A DNA stretch of 53,454 nt from a bacterium (GTDB lineage: Bacteria > JAHJDO01), in assembly GCA_030652805.1 (NCBI GenBank), contig JAUSPT010000026.1, positions 1-53,454 of the forward strand, given 5' to 3'. This document shows, piece after piece, positions 18,318 through 39,151 of this stretch. Under the pieces are notes generated by a model. That model ran no database searches. It was not told the DNA's origin and saw nothing but the letters and a program-made list of their open reading frames with translations. A program made the position numbers and the translations under genes. Positions within the stretch are counted from its first letter, which is position 1. Each line of letters starts with the position of its first letter.

Positions 18318-20405
18318 ATGCTTAAACTGGATACTTCTATCCAATATATGAAAGGCGTTGGTCCGAAAAGAGTTGCGCTTTTTGAACGTCTTGGTATCCA
18401 AACAGTCAAAGACCTTCTTTATTATATCCCTCGGAGATATGAAGATAGGCGTAATTTTTCTCCTATTTCAAAGCTCGGTATTGGGGCGCAACACACAGTT
18501 ATGGGGAAAGTTCTGACAAGCGGAGTACAGAAATTAAAGAAAAATCTAAGCATACTCAAGGTGGCCATTGATGACGGCACAGGCATAATATATGCTGTAT
18601 GGTTTAATCAGCCGTTTTTAGAAGAACAGTTTAAGATCGGCACAAAGGTTGTTGTAAGCGGTAAGGTTCAGATATACGGCAGAGAGTTACAAATATCCAG
18701 CCAGTCTTATGAAATTTTACGTTCCGAAGACAAAGAGAACGAAACAGAAGAACTAATTCATACAGGAAGAATTGTCCCTTTTTATCCGCTGACCCAAAAC
18801 ATATCCCAGCGCAGAATAAGAAGAATGATTAAAAATGCTCTGGATAACTGCCTGGATCAGATAAATGGCATGCTTCCGCAGGACGTTAAAGCAAGGCACA
18901 AGCTGATAGATACTAGGTGCGCTCTTTTAAACATCCACTTCCCCAAGACGTGGAGGGATAAGGACTTGGCTTACAGAAGAATTGTTTTTGATGAATTTCT
19001 GTTGTTGCAATTAGGAATTCTTTTAAAAAGGGCCTCCATTTCAGAACCTCAGCTTGGTATAAAACATCAAAATAAAGGAAGACTGCTGGAGCAATTTCTC
19101 AAGACCTTGCCGTTCAAGCTGACTGATGCGCAGCATAGAGTTATAGATGAAATAAATCGGGATATGACATCTGAAAAACAAATGAACAGACTAATCCAGG
19201 GCGAAGTTGGATCAGGAAAAACTATTGTTGCAATTGCTGCTTTGCTGATTAGTATTGAAAATGGTTATCAGGGAGCCATAATGGTGCCGACAGAAATACT
19301 GGCAGAACAACATTACATTTATATGGCAGAGGCGTTGGCTCCAATCGGTATAAAAATTGATTTACTGATTGGCAGCACCACTCAGAAATCACGTACGGAG
19401 ATTACAGAAAATATACGCAATGGAATTACTGATATTATTATTGGAACACATACATTGGTTCAAGAGAACATTGAATTCAAAAGGCTTGGACTTGTAGTAA
19501 TTGATGAACAACATCGTTTTGGCGTGCTGCAACGTAACATGTTAAGAAAGAAGGGGCTTAATCCTGATGTTCTGGTGATGACTGCTACACCTATACCCAG
19601 AACTCTTGCACTTACTGTATATGGAGATTTGGATATTTCTACGATCAGGGAACTTCCTCCTGGGAGAGGCACTGTATCAACATATTGGGTATCAAAGTCA
19701 CAGCTCCAGGGAGTGCATGAGTTTATTGAGGAAGAGATAAAAAGAGGGCGGCAGGCATATGTTGTCTCTCCACTAATCGAGGAGTCGCATATAATAGAGG
19801 CTGTTGCGGCTACTCAACTCTTTGAACATTTTAAGAAGAAAGTATTTTTGAATCTAAGAATAGGACTTTTGCATGGGCAAATGAAAAGCGAAGATAAAGA
19901 AAAGGTAATGCAGGAGTTTCGCGAAAACAAGATTAATATACTGGTGTCTACAACGGTTATTGAAGTTGGTATAGATATTCCTAATGCTACTATAATGTTG
20001 ATAGAGAATGCTGAGCGATTTGGCCTGTCACAGCTTCATCAGCTTAGGGGCAGAATTGGCAGGGGCAAAGACCAATCATATTGTATATTGCATGGTATGC
20101 CAAGAACTCCTGAAGCGCAGAAGCGCTTGACAGTTATGACGCAAACACAGGATGGTTTTAGGATTGCGCAGGAGGATTTGGAACTTAGAGGTCCTGGAGA
20201 ATTCTTTGGAACAAAACAACATGGTCTGCCTGAATTAAAAATCGGCAATATAATTTTAGATCTAGATATAATGGAGATTGCAAGAGAAGAGGCAGTAAAT
20301 ATAATTAAGTCTGATCCTGAACTCTCAGCCAAAGAGAATTATCTTATTAAGAGAAATTTTCTGCAGAGCTTCAAACACAGGATTGATCTGGCAAAAGTAG
20401 GATAA
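18318..20405 (+). CDS. recG: ATP-dependent DNA helicase RecG
   Basis: It remodels stalled replication forks and branched DNA. It has 695 residues, the normal size. An N-terminal wedge domain with OB fold (about residues 55-150) opens with the helix-hairpin segment QYMKGVGPKRVALFERLGI. Helicase motifs follow: Walker A GEVGSGKT near 295-302, DEQHRFG near 396, TATPIPRTLA near 421, and QLRGRIGRG near 575, the motif VI arginine finger. The C-terminus ends with the usual short domain. The frame is intact. rsmD lies 147 bp downstream, with a dispersed repeat in between. Confidence 0.96.
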   Translation: MLKLDTSIQYMKGVGPKRVALFERLGIQTVKDLLYYIPRRYEDRRNFSPISKLGIGAQHTVMGKVLTSGVQKLKKNLSILKVAIDDGTGIIYAVWFNQPFLEEQFKIGTKVVVSGKVQIYGRELQISSQSYEILRSEDKENETEELIHTGRIVPFYPLTQNISQRRIRRMIKNALDNCLDQINGMLPQDVKARHKLIDTRCALLNIHFPKTWRDKDLAYRRIVFDEFLLLQLGILLKRASISEPQLGIKHQNKGRLLEQFLKTLPFKLTDAQHRVIDEINRDMTSEKQMNRLIQGEVGSGKTIVAIAALLISIENGYQGAIMVPTEILAEQHYIYMAEALAPIGIKIDLLIGSTTQKSRTEITENIRNGITDIIIGTHTLVQENIEFKRLGLVVIDEQHRFGVLQRNMLRKKGLNPDVLVMTATPIPRTLALTVYGDLDISTIRELPPGRGTVSTYWVSKSQLQGVHEFIEEEIKRGRQAYVVSPLIEESHIIEAVAATQLFEHFKKKVFLNLRIGLLHGQMKSEDKEKVMQEFRENKINILVSTTVIEVGIDIPNATIMLIENAERFGLSQLHQLRGRIGRGKDQSYCILHGMPRTPEAQKRLTVMTQTQDGFRIAQEDLELRGPGEFFGTKQHGLPELKIGNIILDLDIMEIAREEAVNIIKSDPELSAKENYLIKRNFLQSFKHRIDLAKVG

Positions 20406-20409
20406 TGGT

Positions 20410-20545
20410 TAAATTCGAAGCACGAAGCACTAAATACGAAACAATATCAAATGACCAAAATACAAATGATCAAAACAATGTTTAGAATTTTGAAAATTAG
20501 GATTTTGGATTTGTTTAGGATTTCGATATTCGGATTTCGGATTTA
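20410..20545 (+). repeat. 136-bp dispersed repeat, copy 1, with micro-ORF
   Basis: This repeat fills the recG-rsmD gap and is about 95% identical (about 7 differences) to 27460-27595 on the other strand. It contains an open frame from ATG 20451 or ATG 20466 to a TAG at 20544-20546. The shorter product is 26 residues, beginning MIKTMFRILKIR. The stop is six bases before the rsmD start codon. No other strong ribosome-binding site for rsmD is visible, so the repeat may act as a translational leader. It resembles interspersed repeats of candidate-phylum genomes, by memory only. Confidence 0.85.
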
Positions 20546-20552
20546 GAAAAAG

Positions 20553-21110
20553 ATGCGTATAATTGCAGGAAATAACAGGGGGCTCATATTAGAAACAATA
20601 CCTAACAGAAAAACACGTCCTACGTTAGGCAGAGTTAGAGAAGCGTTGTTTAGTATGCTGGGGGATCAGATTATTGATGCAGAAGTACTTGATCTTTTTG
20701 CTGGCTCAGGCAGTCTTGGAATAGAGGCGCTCAGCAGAGGAGCAAAGAACGTTGTGTTTATAGATAACAATCCAGAATGTGTACGCGTTATCCGTAAAAA
20801 TTTGAATAAGTTTGGGTTGGACATCAAAGGTTCTGCATATGTGAGAGATGCATGCAAAACTATAAACTTTCTTGCCAATCAAAATAAAAAATTTGACATT
20901 GTTTTAATGGATCCTCCGTATGACACAGAAGAGCTTGAGAAGATTATGAACAATCCGCATCTTAAAGATATACTGAATAGCGGAGCTGTCTTAGTTATTG
21001 AACATTCCAAAAGAAACACACCGCCTTGCCCGAACATTAAAGAATTATGCCATGTTAAATCAAAAAGATATGGGGATACAGTTTTGGCTATTTACGAATT
21101 CCATTCATAG
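20553..21110 (+). CDS. rsmD: 16S rRNA (guanine966-N2)-methyltransferase
   Basis: It methylates G966 of 16S rRNA during assembly of the small subunit. It has 185 residues. The opening MRIIAGNNRGLILE and TRPTLGRVREALFSML are family hallmarks. The SAM site is DLFAGSGSLGIEALSRGA near residue 47, and the catalytic motif is MDPPY near 119-123. It lies just behind a dispersed repeat whose micro-ORF ends six bases upstream. Its 3' end overlaps the 3' end of the convergent pilT gene by 6 bp. Confidence 0.94.
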   Translation: MRIIAGNNRGLILETIPNRKTRPTLGRVREALFSMLGDQIIDAEVLDLFAGSGSLGIEALSRGAKNVVFIDNNPECVRVIRKNLNKFGLDIKGSAYVRDACKTINFLANQNKKFDIVLMDPPYDTEELEKIMNNPHLKDILNSGAVLVIEHSKRNTPPCPNIKELCHVKSKRYGDTVLAIYEFHS

Positions 21111-26231: not shown

Positions 26232-27443
26232 TTAGAAACCCTCTGTTACCAGAGTACTCATCTTGAGTATTGGCAGGAACATGGCAATAACAATACCACC
26301 TATTATTATACCCAAAAAACAGATTAAAACAGGTTCTATCACAGAGGTTAATCCGTCTACTGCAGCATCAACTTCGGATTCGTAAAAATCAGCGATCTTT
26401 GTCAACATATCTTCCAGAGCGCCTGTTGCTTCACCAACCGATATCATCCTGACAACCATTGCTGGGAAAAATTTACTTTTACTAAGCGGCTCTGCAATGC
26501 TTTTCCCCTCTTTAACACCTATTCCAACACTGCTAAGAGTTTTCTCTAACACCTTATTCCCTGAAGTAGCTCCAACTATTTCAAGCGCCTTAAGAATAGG
26601 AACACTGCTCTTTATCAGTGTACACAGTGTTCTTGCAAACTTTGCCAGAGCTACCTTCTTCATGAGAGCGCCGAAAATAATTATACGAAGTTTCAATCCG
26701 TCAAACTGAAGTCTTCCTTTTTCAGTCTGCACATATTTACGTAATAAGAAGAAAGCAACAGCTAAGATTCCTGCTACAATCAGAAAATAATCTTTGAGAA
26801 TCTCGCTCGTTCCTATAAGTACTCTTGTCGGAAGAGGAAGAGTTCCGCCAAAAGCATCAAAAATATTTTTAAACGTTGGAACTACTTTCAATATTAAAAC
26901 CATAACTATAAGAATAGACATACCAGTAACCACTGCTGGATACACCATGGCAGATTTTACCTTTCTGGCAAGTTTGGCGGAGTTCTCAAGATATGTTGCA
27001 AGACGGTTAAGGATTTCATCCAATGTACCACTTTCTTCCCCTGCCCTTACCATGCTTACATAAAATTCCGAGAACACTTTTTGGTGTTTTAAGAGAGCCT
27101 GAGAAAAGCTTTCTCCCCCCTCCACATCATTTTCCAGTTTTCTAACAAGTGTTTTTAAAGAAGGATTTTCCATTTGGTCAGCAAGTGTATCCAGCCCCTG
27201 AACCAGAGGCAATCCCGCATTAACCATTGTAGCCAACTGTCTGCTAAAGAGAATTAAATCATTGGACTTTATTTTAGTACTCTTCTTAAATATAAATGCT
27301 CTTTTTTTTTGTTCAGTTATAGAGACTATTGTTAATTGGTTAGCTCTGAGAGTGCTAACGAGATTTTTTTCGCTTTCAGCAGAATGAAGAGCCTCTATTC
27401 TCTTTCCATCTTTATCAATCGCAATATACTTATATGTCGGCAT
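26232..27443 (-). CDS. pilC: Type IV pilus inner-membrane platform protein PilC
   Basis: This polytopic inner-membrane protein of 403 residues couples PilB and PilT to pilin movement. It shows two T2SSF domains (about 65-190 and 270-390). Typical segments are FSRQLATMVNAGLPLVQGLDTL, GGESFSQAL, MVRAGEESGTLDEIL, and the second copy FARTLCTLIKSSVPILKALEI with MISVGEATGALEDML. The start is ATG 27443, with AGAGG six bases upstream. That ribosome-binding site overlaps the stop codon region of a micro-ORF in the preceding repeat. Confidence 0.95.
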   Translation of the reverse strand: MPTYKYIAIDKDGKRIEALHSAESEKNLVSTLRANQLTIVSITEQKKRAFIFKKSTKIKSNDLILFSRQLATMVNAGLPLVQGLDTLADQMENPSLKTLVRKLENDVEGGESFSQALLKHQKVFSEFYVSMVRAGEESGTLDEILNRLATYLENSAKLARKVKSAMVYPAVVTGMSILIVMVLILKVVPTFKNIFDAFGGTLPLPTRVLIGTSEILKDYFLIVAGILAVAFFLLRKYVQTEKGRLQFDGLKLRIIIFGALMKKVALAKFARTLCTLIKSSVPILKALEIVGATSGNKVLEKTLSSVGIGVKEGKSIAEPLSKSKFFPAMVVRMISVGEATGALEDMLTKIADFYESEVDAAVDGLTSVIEPVLICFLGIIIGGIVIAMFLPILKMSTLVTEGF

Positions 27444-27459
27444 GACTTACCTCTTTAAT

Positions 27460-27595
27460 AAAATCCGAAATCCGAATATCGAAATCCGAAACAAATCTAA
27501 AACTCTAATTTTCAAAATCCTAAACATTGTTTTGAACATTTGTATTTTGGTCATTTGATATTGTTTCGTATTTAGTGTTTCGTGCTTCGAATTTA
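27460..27595 (-). repeat. 136-bp dispersed repeat, copy 2, with micro-ORF
   Basis: It fills the 159-bp pilB-pilC gap, the largest gap in the pilus cluster after the first pilin. It is about 95% identical to 20410-20545 and has the same orientation relative to the downstream gene. Its micro-ORF starts at 27554 or 27539 (30 residues from 27539, beginning MFKTMFRILKIR) and stops at 27447, three bases before pilC. The last codons run through the pilC ribosome-binding site. Ends were set by the limit of similarity. Confidence 0.85.
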
Positions 27596-27602
27596 GTCTT
27601 TT

Positions 27603-29309
27603 CTATTCCGCTGTTACGCGCAAAACTTCTTCTATGGTAGTCGTGCCCTTTTTGATTAGATCTATACCGCTTTCCTGCAATGTTATCATTCCGCCTTTTA
27701 CAGCAGCTTCCTTAATCTCACCTGAAGTGGCCTTGTTCATAATTAGTTGCTTGATCTCATCATCTATCTTTAGTATTTCAACAACAGCAACTCTGCCTTT
27801 GTATCCAGTGTCATTACAAAGCTCGCAGCCCTTTCCTTTATATATTGTTAAATCTGATATTTTGGAAATTGGCTGTTGCAGAATATGGGCAAAATTCTCT
27901 TTTGCCTTTTCCTGCAGATCAATTTTTTCTTTGCAGTTTTCGCATATTTTTCGCATGAGTCTCTGCGCAGCAACCATTATTACAGAAGATGAGAGAAGAA
28001 ACGGCTCAATCCCCATATCTATCAACCTTGTAATTGCTCCGGGAGCATCATTTGTGTGTAACGTGCTGAAGACCAAATGACCTGTCAGAGCGGATTTTAT
28101 CGCAATATCAGCAGTTTCAAAATCCCTTATCTCTCCAACCATTATAATATCAGGATCCTGCCTTAATATAGATCGTAAGCCGCCGGCAAATGTCAGACCT
28201 ATATCTGAGTGAGCTTGCACCTGATTGATTCCCTTTAGTTGATATTCTACAGGATCCTCAACTGTAATAATATTCTTAGTTGGTGTATTTATTTTGCTTA
28301 ACGCAGAATAAAGCGTTGTGGTTTTACCACTACCTGTTGGTCCAGTTAGAAGGATCATTCCATGTGGTCTGGAAATAGATTCTGTAAATATTTCCAGCTC
28401 TTTTTCTCCAAATCCTAATTTCTCCAGATTCAGTGTTAAACTACTCTTATCCAGAATACGCAATACCACCTTTTCCCCAAAAATTATTGGTAGAATTGAT
28501 ACGCGAAAGTCTATTTCCTTATTATTTAATACAATCCTCATACGGCCATCCTGCGGAAGCCTTCGTTCTGCTATATCCAGATTGGACATAATCTTTATTC
28601 TGGAGATTAGTGCAGCCTGAAGTTTTTTAGGTGGAGACAACCTCTCGTAAAGAACACCGTCAATACGATAGCGGATGCGCAATGCCTTATCCTCCGGTTC
28701 AATATGAATATCGCTTGCTTTCTCCTTAATTGCTTGAGCGAGAATAAAATTAACCATTTTTACAACTGGAGCTTCCTCAGTTTCCCTTAAGAGTTTTTCT
28801 AAATCTAGTTCTTCCCTTTTCTCAGCAGGTTCCTTAATATCAATGTCCCTTAAAATCTCTTTCATATCAAAAGATACTTCATAATACTGGTCAATAGCAT
28901 TGAGAATATCCTTTTCTGTGGCTATTACAGGATCTATCTCGTATCCAGTAGTGCTTTTTAAATCGTCTATAGCAAACACATTAAGAGGATCCAGCATGGC
29001 AATCGTAAGGGTTTTTCCTATCTTAGAGATTGGAACAATGGAATACTTTTTGGCAATTGTCTTCGGTATTGTTTCTATAACCTCTTTTGAAATTTTAAAT
29101 TTTGAAAGATTTATCGGAGGGATATTTAATTGTTCGCTTAAGCACGCCATAAGGGTCTTCTCATCAGCAAAGCCTTTTTTATAAATAATCCGGCTTAAAC
29201 TGCCGCCTTTTTCCCTCTGATCATGGAGTGCCTCTTTTAACTGTTCCTCTGTAATTATTCCTCCATCAAGTAGAATTCTTGATAGGTTGTCCTTTAAAGA
29301 CATAATCAT
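27603..29309 (-). CDS. pilB: Type IV pilus assembly ATPase PilB
   Basis: This hexameric ATPase drives pilus extension. It has 568 residues. The N-terminal MshEN region (about 1-140) has lost several glycines of the cyclic-di-GMP motif (GSLSRIIYKKG in place of LGxxL). The ATPase core has Walker A GPTGSGKT at 323-330, DIIMVGEIRD near 387-396 and HLVFSTLHTND near 411. A four-cysteine zinc site is present (Cys456, Cys459, Cys495, Cys498). The start ATG overlaps the preceding MshEN gene by 4 bp; a second in-frame ATG is two codons on. Confidence 0.96.
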   Translation of the reverse strand: MIMSLKDNLSRILLDGGIITEEQLKEALHDQREKGGSLSRIIYKKGFADEKTLMACLSEQLNIPPINLSKFKISKEVIETIPKTIAKKYSIVPISKIGKTLTIAMLDPLNVFAIDDLKSTTGYEIDPVIATEKDILNAIDQYYEVSFDMKEILRDIDIKEPAEKREELDLEKLLRETEEAPVVKMVNFILAQAIKEKASDIHIEPEDKALRIRYRIDGVLYERLSPPKKLQAALISRIKIMSNLDIAERRLPQDGRMRIVLNNKEIDFRVSILPIIFGEKVVLRILDKSSLTLNLEKLGFGEKELEIFTESISRPHGMILLTGPTGSGKTTTLYSALSKINTPTKNIITVEDPVEYQLKGINQVQAHSDIGLTFAGGLRSILRQDPDIIMVGEIRDFETADIAIKSALTGHLVFSTLHTNDAPGAITRLIDMGIEPFLLSSSVIMVAAQRLMRKICENCKEKIDLQEKAKENFAHILQQPISKISDLTIYKGKGCELCNDTGYKGRVAVVEILKIDDEIKQLIMNKATSGEIKEAAVKGGMITLQESGIDLIKKGTTTIEEVLRVTAE

Positions 29310-32210: not shown

Positions 32211-32662
32211 AATTTATCTCCACTCATTTTTACACTATATTCCTTATTCATATATCTGATCACTATTTCTTCTCTGGTTATTGATACAATTTTGCAGTTG
32301 CTGATATTATCTCCTGCCGCAACAATCTTATCGTTTATAATGGCAAGAGGTTTGGTATTATCAAATAGAACTCCTTCTATTTTCATCTCGGGCAATTTTG
32401 AACTTATAAAACTCCAGCCAGTCGGGGCCATAACGGTCTTATTCTCTGATATAAGAGGGATAAATGGGTCTCTTCTTCCATGAGTGTTATACACAAAAAC
32501 AGGTTCTCTATTCTTAGGTTCTGAGATTTTTTTCGTTGAAATATTAACCTTCTTTTGTCTTGATAAACTCACATTATCCTGCGCAGGCTTTGAACAGCCG
32601 GAAGACAAGAGAAGGCACAAAGTGGCAAAACAAAGAAAAATCCGAAACATTGTTTTGGTCAT
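32207..32662 (-). CDS. pilP: Pilus assembly lipoprotein PilP
   Basis: This 151-residue periplasmic lipoprotein should link the PilN-PilO frame to the secretin. The signal peptide ends in a lipobox LSSGC with Cys23. The HGRRDPFIPL segment and the C-terminal GDNISNCKIVSITREEIVIRY part fit PilP. The first 26 nt of the gene resemble the core of the 136-bp dispersed repeat (3 differences), so the start of the signal peptide may derive from repeat sequence. It overlaps pilO and pilQ by 4 bp each. Confidence 0.88.
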   Translation of the reverse strand: MTKTMFRIFLCFATLCLLLSSGCSKPAQDNVSLSRQKKVNISTKKISEPKNREPVFVYNTHGRRDPFIPLISENKTVMAPTGWSFISSKLPEMKIEGVLFDNTKPLAIINDKIVAAGDNISNCKIVSITREEIVIRYMNKEYSVKMSGDKL

Positions 32663-33207
32663 TTAGATTTTGTCTCCTGAAAAATGAATATACTCAGATA
32701 AATATCCGCAGTATGTTTTAACTCATCCTTTTTATCTGAGATAATACTTATATGATTTATCTTAACGAACCTTTCCAGATTTTCCAGTTTGTTCACGAAT
32801 CTGGCTATTTGGTGATAGCCACCTTTAATACCGAGCGCCATCGGGTATTCAGTATATATACTGGCTTTACCTGATGTCTTTAACTTGCCTGGATCAATAG
32901 ACATTAATTTAACTTTATATTCATTAGCAATATCTGTCAGCGAGGATAGAAAGTCAGGAATTTTATCCTCTCCAGGCATGCGTTTCTGGTATTCTTTTAT
33001 TAGTTTTTGCACTGTCTGAAATTCACGTTCTAATTGAGGTTTTTTAGAAACCATAATCTTTGCTTTTTGTATTTCAGCTTTTTTCTGTGTTATGTTTTTT
33101 CTCAAGAGAGAAATCCGTGCAATCTGGGGTGTTAATAAATAATAATAACCTATAAGAATTCCCAAAGCTACAATAACAAATAAGATAATTCGTTCATTCT
33201 TTTTCAT
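32659..33207 (-). CDS. pilO: Pilus assembly protein PilO
   Basis: This 182-residue inner-membrane protein forms the periplasmic alignment frame with PilN. One membrane helix covers about residues 7-25, followed by a coiled coil (about 28-78). The periplasmic ferredoxin-like fold includes the typical YPMALGIKGGYHQIARFVNKLENLERFV segment, visible at about 121-148. It overlaps pilN and pilP by 4 bp each, within an M-N-O-P-Q set in canonical order. Confidence 0.9.
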   Translation of the reverse strand: MKKNERIILFVIVALGILIGYYYLLTPQIARISLLRKNITQKKAEIQKAKIMVSKKPQLEREFQTVQKLIKEYQKRMPGEDKIPDFLSSLTDIANEYKVKLMSIDPGKLKTSGKASIYTEYPMALGIKGGYHQIARFVNKLENLERFVKINHISIISDKKDELKHTADIYLSIFIFQETKSK

Positions 33208-38172: not shown

Positions 38173-38622
38173 TCATAGTGAGAATGACTGTGCTGCAACA
38201 AAAGCTGCTCCATGTCCTCTGCCAGCTGCTCCGTTCGGACACGTAATCTGGATTTTTCCAACGGGAGTTGAACCTGCCATATATCCAGCACCGGCTCCTA
38301 TGGGACAGGTGGGGATGGTCTTTAGGTATCCTGTGGCAGCCACTAGTCCCCATGTTCCTGTTGCAGGAGCTGCGTTCCACAAAATTGCCCCAGCTGCAAA
38401 TCCAGCGCCGCCATTAGTCGCATCAAGATTTTCCTCTATACACACCTGTTCAAGCCCGGATGCAATCTGTTTCATGTTGTTTGTACATACAACATCTCTG
38501 GATATCGTTCTATTCTTCAGAAAATTAGGTACGGCTATAGTCAATAAAAGCGCTATGATCGCAACAACAATCATAATCTCAACAAGCGTAAAACCTCTGC
38601 CCCTTCTCCGAATAACTACCAT
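38173..38622 (-). CDS. Type IV pilin, second tandem copy
   Basis: A 149-residue prepilin with the site RG/FTLVEIMIVVAII (Gly10, Glu15). It is clearly a paralogue of the upstream pilin: the block QIAS-LEQVC-EENLDATNGGAGFAAGAI is nearly identical, and all four cysteines (46, 61, 106, 128) are kept, which suggests two disulfides. The C-terminal tail beyond about residue 128 differs. An AAAGGGG ribosome-binding site precedes the start. A strong hairpin separates it from the first copy, so its expression is probably lower. Confidence 0.9.
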   Translation of the reverse strand: MVVIRRRGRGFTLVEIMIVVAIIALLLTIAVPNFLKNRTISRDVVCTNNMKQIASGLEQVCIEENLDATNGGAGFAAGAILWNAAPATGTWGLVAATGYLKTIPTCPIGAGAGYMAGSTPVGKIQITCPNGAAGRGHGAAFVAAQSFSL

Positions 38623-38707: not shown

Positions 38708-39151
38708 TTATTGCAGTGTATATGGATTATTAGTAGCCTGAAAATTTGGTCCATGGCTTGTCAGACTTGGACAAGTAATCTGAAATACCCCAACTGTTGA
38801 TGAGCCTGCTGTATAAGCACCAGCTGCTATAGGACATGCAGGAGCTGTCTTTAGGTACGCCGTACTACCTACTATTCCCCATGCTCCTGTCACAGGAAGT
38901 GCGTCCCATACAATTGCTCCAGCTGCAAATCCAGCGCCACCATTCGTAGCATCGAGATTTTCTTCCATGCACACCTGCTCAAGGGCTGATGCAATCTGTT
39001 TCATGCCATTTACACATACAGCGTCTCTAGATCTGCTTCTGGACTTGATGAAGTTAGGAATAGCTATGGCTGCTAAAAGCCCAATAATCGCTACAACAAT
39101 CATAATTTCAACAAGCGTGAAACCTCTTTTACTTTTCAGTAATTTAATCAT
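38708..39151 (-). CDS. Type IV pilin, probable major subunit
   Basis: A 147-residue prepilin, probably the main pilus subunit because it lies first behind the sigma54 promoter and before a strong hairpin. The leader MIKLLKSKRG is followed by FTLVEIMIVVAIIGLLAAIAIP, with cleavage after Gly10 and Glu15 kept. Four cysteines (46, 61, 106, 127) match the second pilin. ATG 39151 has GGAGGTG six bases upstream, by far the best site; the frame is open to 39331 but that extension would cross the promoter. It also resembles GspG-like pseudopilins, but the surrounding genes are of type IV pilus type. Confidence 0.92.
   Translation of the reverse strand: MIKLLKSKRGFTLVEIMIVVAIIGLLAAIAIPNFIKSRSRSRDAVCVNGMKQIASALEQVCMEENLDATNGGAGFAAGAIVWDALPVTGAWGIVGSTAYLKTAPACPIAAGAYTAGSSTVGVFQITCPSLTSHGPNFQATNNPYTLQ

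Follow-up and report, generated by a model that had tools for sequence, protein, structure and literature searches.

What is a repeat of 136 bp doing directly upstream of two unrelated genes of the same bacterium? In the 53,454-nt stretch of DNA analyzed here (hereafter the window), two copies precede rsmD and pilC, names that, like those of recG and pilB, we take from recognition of the translated sequences and not from a family search. Both copies are real, with 95% identity over 135 nt, far above chance (blastn, E = 2e-56), and each is oriented toward its downstream gene (Table 1). The sequence-only reading had held that each copy keeps a conserved micro-ORF ending 3-6 nt before the next ATG, and that the repeat is a mobile translational leader coupling ribosomes from the micro-ORF to the next gene. 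The spacing is as described: the stop codon ends 6 nt before the ATG of rsmD and 3 nt before that of pilC. The pilC ribosome-binding site, which had been placed in the last codons of the second micro-ORF, does fall inside the extended frame, but it lies just outside the repeat, within a 17-nt tail.

Table 1. Repeat-related features of the window (IVP, intervening-sequence protein; L numbers denote individual loci)
Feature	Position	Strand	Description	Evidence
Copy 1, miniature hairpin element	20410..20545	+	Between recG (18318-20405) and rsmD (20553-21110)	
Copy 1 left arm	20411..20476	+	7-nt repeats GAAGCAC/GAAATAC; putative relic IVP start codon inside	Pairing, lag-7 self-match 0.62
Copy 1 right arm	20480..20544	+	7-nt repeats GGATTTC/GATATTC	Pairing, lag-7 self-match 0.59
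Copy 1 "micro-ORF"	20451..20546	+	Putative IVP gene relic start (MTKIQ..K), then right-arm read-through; ATG 20451, stop ends 20546, rsmD ATG 20553	
Copy 2, miniature element	27461..27595	-	Between pilB-like gene (27603-29309) and pilC (26232-27443)	
Copy 2 "micro-ORF"	27447..27554	-	Extends through the 17-nt tail; ATG 27554 (-), stop ends 27447, pilC ATG 27443	
Copy 2 tail, 17 nt	27444..27460	-	Ribosome-binding site AAAGAGG; missing from sister-genome empty sites (L002 vs L240, L248)	
Third, partial copy	32637..32672	-	36 nt, 86%	blastn

Two other internal similarities were seen in the window. The two contig ends (76-994 and 52046-52964) resemble each other at 87-90% identity in segments of 119-300 nt that fall within two ORFs (434 and 424 codons), a similarity that may be a limit on the assembly. 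A 300-nt direct repeat (38287-38586 and 38816-39115, 77% identical) lies in two adjoining short genes and is probably a tandem gene duplication.

Searching the genome and its relatives, as the sequence-only reading had proposed, yielded 37 blastn matches in the 2.0-Mb genome itself, ~20 of them near full length (about 30-37 copies), together with 40 and 29 matches in the sister genomes G002 and G004. After orthologous sites were merged, 70 near-full-length copies represented 56 independent loci. The copies examined sit between protein-coding genes, and none lies in a 16S or 23S rRNA stem. For a 24-base pattern taken from the right arm, the matches listed included Deltaproteobacteria, Aminicenantes, several Patescibacteria, Phycisphaerae and other Planctomycetota, Omnitrophota, Acidobacteriota, WOR-3, Verrucomicrobia, and others; the elements in other phyla are mostly hairpins of the same kind with variable loops. 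Plasmid and phage collections gave no match to the repeat, viral contigs none to the right-arm pattern, and Rfam no relevant family, its one weak match (Ysr141) lying elsewhere in the locus and far below the cut-off. In a literature search by sequence string and by concept, with incomplete journal coverage, we found no description of the repeat, of mobile intervening-sequence (IVS) copies or miniature swarms in protein operons, or of a general heptad-arm architecture.

The whole repeat is one long imperfect hairpin (z = -2.2; 51 pairs in the consensus), and the window element has complementary terminal arms able to form a single long stem. Both arms are built of degenerate heptads, GAAGCAC-GAAGCAC-GAAATAC on the left and GGATTTC-GATATTC-GGATTTC on the right, with self-matches at lag 7 (Table 1) above those at other lags (0.12-0.47). 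The same arms flank complete IVP genes at three loci (L126, L160, and L171). Such a full-length element spans ~470-490 bp and consists of two long complementary heptad arms around one gene for a 121-aa IVP, a four-helix-bundle "23S rRNA intervening-sequence protein", whose start codon lies within the left arm. The proteins of these loci match PF05635 (E = 4e-13 to 7e-10) and TIGR02436 (E = 3e-19), and their genes start as ATGACCAAA, ATGACCGAA or ATGACAGAA, which is the position and sequence of the micro-ORF.

Remnants of the gene were found between these two states. A 212-nt locus (L186) encodes MTKIPNPKQFDLDDRTLAFTKRVKAFVKKLRKTE, ending in a stop codon, in which the IVP N-terminus is joined to the last IVP residues (tblastn, E = 4e-10; best reversed-query control, 0.019), and it is an intermediate with a clear internal deletion of the IVP gene. 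A shorter relic, MTKTQNPKRYDLEG followed by a stop, is kept at L097, and L055 keeps TATGATTTA past the left arm. Together with the matching start position and sequence, these relics identify the micro-ORF, as far as sequence comparison can tell, as about nine initial codons of a deleted IVP gene, after which the frame reads through the right arm. The window copies hold a 31-aa relic with no Pfam match and no S23p/IVP ORF between the arms, whereas full-length relatives with the same arms do have the gene, and the copies are therefore classed as derivatives and not as full members. Moreover, IVPs with this arm family share 60-80% identity with each other and at most 45% with IVPs that have other arms, so arms and protein are inherited together. 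The 136-bp repeat is thus very probably a miniature derivative of an IVS-like element, its derivation from IVP elements being well supported at the sequence level. No intact element with exactly these arms is visible in this genome, where an IVP gene of the same subfamily lies directly behind one miniature (L016) and runs into an assembly gap. The junction occupied by L016, a miniature of the window-repeat family (C36:17289-17422 of this genome), appears to be the one that in G002 (C11:6726-7013) holds L283, a full-length IVP element whose arms are different and AT-rich; these appear to be independent insertions at one site.

Insertion is proven by empty sites in the sister genomes. Among four of these, searched with joined flanks, we found empty alleles for ~9 of the copies in this genome, and occupancy differs between sister species, which bears out the description of the repeat as mobile. 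The insertions are located at operon stop/start junctions; targeting of such junctions need not be invoked, since tandem arrangement is already the rule in the window (35 of 41 gene junctions). Comparison of empty and filled alleles revealed extra flanking bases and no consistent or clean target-site duplication. At the pilC site, one sister allele reads GAATAGAAAGCATG, to which the filled allele adds the hairpin and the 17-nt tail with AAAGAGG. At a racemase-like gene (L014), the element lies in the first codons, leaving the native ATG upstream, and its tail AACGGAGTTCAGTGAATATTTAC provides a new ribosome-binding site and a GTG start. This tail recurs at L018, L211, L213, and L221 (the orthologue of L014) and is therefore part of the mobile unit in a subfamily; the recurrent 3' sequence at these five loci is TTTAAAGGAGTTCAGTGAATATTTAC, with a Shine-Dalgarno motif and the GTG start. 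Short AGGT-type ribosome-binding-site segments were also seen between element and next start at L007 (CCCGAACGAAGTGAGGTAGGT) and L024 (GCTCAAGCAAAGCGAGAGGT), and may be further small repeats. Fusion in frame to the downstream gene occurs at seven loci (L004, L009, L052, L072, L073, L192, and L231), with the entire element at L009 read as part of a pilin-like leader. Several of these fusions fall just before pilin-like or signal-peptide-like segments.

The shared orientation of the two window copies proved to be non-random. Among independent loci with co-directional neighbors, 43 elements lie with transcription and six against it (p = 6e-8). IVP genes are likewise co-oriented with their neighbors (17:1, and about 6:2 in a further set of loci), which would be expected of genes dependent on the host transcript. 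In other phyla, the miniatures have no orientation bias (12 co-directional and 10 opposed, with orientation set by the relic start and genes from a cruder gene caller), which rules out the bias as a universal property of miniatures; it may therefore depend on the host.

The micro-ORF, in contrast to what had been claimed, is not a conserved trait of the family. The family consensus is interrupted in this frame by stops at codons 12, 17, and 19, and premature stops were found in 38 of the 56 independent loci. Substitution rates at the three codon positions (0.147, 0.100, and 0.128) reveal no avoidance of the first two, and the 443 non-synonymous, 153 synonymous, and 48 nonsense changes are near the neutral expectation (0.76, 0.20, and 0.04). 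A frame that is not kept and has no coding constraint differs from a conserved leader-peptide uORF, and for many downstream genes the element is followed by a ribosome-binding site that belongs to the gene itself. These results make it improbable that the element is retained as a mobile translational leader, with ribosomes loaded at its micro-ORF and passed on to the gene downstream, even though the strong sense orientation, the seven in-frame fusions, the new ribosome-binding sites brought by tails, and ~5 loci with a micro-ORF stop at most 7 nt from the next start all speak for such a role. Of the two patterns that the sequence-only reading had set against its own proposal, frequent stops were observed and random orientation was not. 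Fused or abutting arrangements are found in 10 of 13 copies with an open frame vs 10 of 25 with a closed one, an excess that hints weakly at exaptation of a minority of copies, both window copies among them. A leader function could be no more than a secondary use for some of the copies and is plausible for that minority only; it does not hold for the family.

We also considered that the repeat might be of ordinary MITE or REP-like type and mobilized by a DNA transposase, with the IVP gene as a passenger that once jumped into the hairpin. The window element resembles MITEs in being a non-autonomous, multicopy palindrome with terminal inverted repeats, and shares with MITEs and enterobacterial RU-type sequences (PMC2759123) its short length, mostly intergenic location, and occasional in-frame fusion to host genes. 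REP/BIME sequences with RAYT transposases (PMC2817692, PMC3733652) are likewise palindromic repeats interspersed outside genes, but have another length and build. Two Y1_Tnp proteins are encoded in this genome; their genes lack a flanking element and are not associated with the repeat, which rules out a RAYT link. Unlike in MITEs, only IVP and no known transposase was found between these arms, and the strong sense bias in this genus sets the elements apart from both MITEs and RU-type sequences; the lack of a clean target-site duplication at empty sites may be a further difference and would speak against a transposase. The co-inheritance of arms and IVP subfamily also argues against a passenger, as do the arms of unrelated IVP genes, which a chance passenger would not explain: period-7 repeats adjoin the gene in 20 of 24 IVP loci and period-8 repeats in 3 more, and the mean lag-7 self-match is 0.67 in IVP loci vs 0.43 in control stretches. 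Inverted arms, with sequences quite unlike these, are also common at the IVP genes of unrelated genomes; many IVP loci score higher for inverted repeats than any of their 40 shuffles, and some have no inverted arms above their shuffles. On balance, transposase-driven movement with a passenger gene seems unlikely. In one genome (G058), four near-identical full-length IVP elements (L299, L306, L312, and L314) occupy different sites, all in sense orientation; they have a left boundary (TTAAGCGCAATG in three) and a right tail (GTATTCACGAAGGAACGCC in three) in common, and they would be a good system for locating element ends and targets.

Once inserted, the hairpin decays as if neutral. Pairing is 87.3% among 50 independent copies, the same as with shuffled columns; with no gain over the shuffles within the genus, there is no sign that the inserted hairpin functions at the RNA level. 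Folding is stronger for the sense than for the antisense strand (-26.1 vs -21.5 kcal/mol; 31 of 34 copies), an edge largely made of G-U pairs fixed in the consensus, and elements in other phyla have no folding difference between strands. No ATG occurs on the antisense strand of the window copy. An intercistronic RNA hairpin selected in one orientation at operon junctions, as an RNase III site, mRNA stabilizer or insulator, would fit this folding edge, the location and orientation bias of the copies, and the RNase III cleavage of rRNA IVSs (PMC4990558), but it is very improbable given the absence of covariation beyond shuffled columns, the differing site occupancy of sister species, and the equal folding of both strands in other phyla.

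We favor derivation from an IVP element, as follows. The ancestor would have been a mobile IVS-type element with heptad arms around an IVP gene; loss of the gene by internal deletion would have left a hairpin of 130-210 bp that kept the relic ATGACCAAA start, seen in the window as the micro-ORF. Copies have inserted at operon stop/start junctions within the history of the genus, mostly in sense, and have then evolved without detectable coding or pairing constraint. IVP supplied by an intact relative, host enzymes, or both would recognize the arms and move the hairpin, and the transcribed hairpin may, by analogy with rRNA IVSs, be a target of RNase III. As the cause of the orientation bias, we lean to survivorship in tight operons over strand-specific insertion, a choice that we regard as close to evenly balanced: sense copies may survive in tight junctions, where they would end the upstream gene and offer ATGs or a tail ribosome-binding site to the downstream one. 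In a minority of copies, the element would supply the real start of the next gene.

A broader reading is tentative, and we consider it somewhat less likely than its opposite. The "four helix bundle protein" genes that are so ubiquitous in uncultured bacteria could constitute a phylum-wide class of heptad-arm mobile elements that move without a known transposase, possibly onto transcribed DNA or via RNA (hence the sense orientation), and that shed miniatures which colonize operon junctions and become host-gene starts; the rRNA IVS would then be a special case that landed in rRNA.

To our knowledge, neither a function nor a mobility mechanism is known for S23p/IVP proteins or rRNA intervening sequences. 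The elements described here share with the 23S rRNA IVSs of Leptospira and Coxiella (PMC4990558) complementary arms forming a long stem, an S23p/IVP ORF in the sense of the host transcript, heptamers just before that ORF, a sporadic distribution, and an already suspected mobility. In the Coxiella IVS, complementary ends and tandem GACAGAT heptamers are followed by the S23p ORF in transcript sense, and the IVS is excised by RNase III (PMC4990558); mobility had been no more than a hypothesis (Ralph and McClelland 1993, as cited in PMC4990558). Insertions in CPR rRNA genes occasionally encode an IVP domain (PMC11270868). Unlike the rRNA IVSs, the elements here are multicopy, occupy sites between the protein genes of operons and include gene-less miniatures, and their insertion is shown by empty sites, whereas RNase III excision would apply to them by analogy only.

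What is new here is the existence of miniature, gene-less IVS-type derivatives that are mobile outside rRNA genes. They offer mobile IVS-type copies with empty sites and a heptad arm architecture that travels with the protein subfamily, and the miniatures provide substrates on which IVP may act in trans, so that IVP as a mobility protein recognizing heptad arms becomes a directly testable question. The finding further accounts for a class of low-complexity hairpin repeats present in many uncultured phyla, and provides a case of an insertion element surviving inside tight operons and donating N-termini to host genes.
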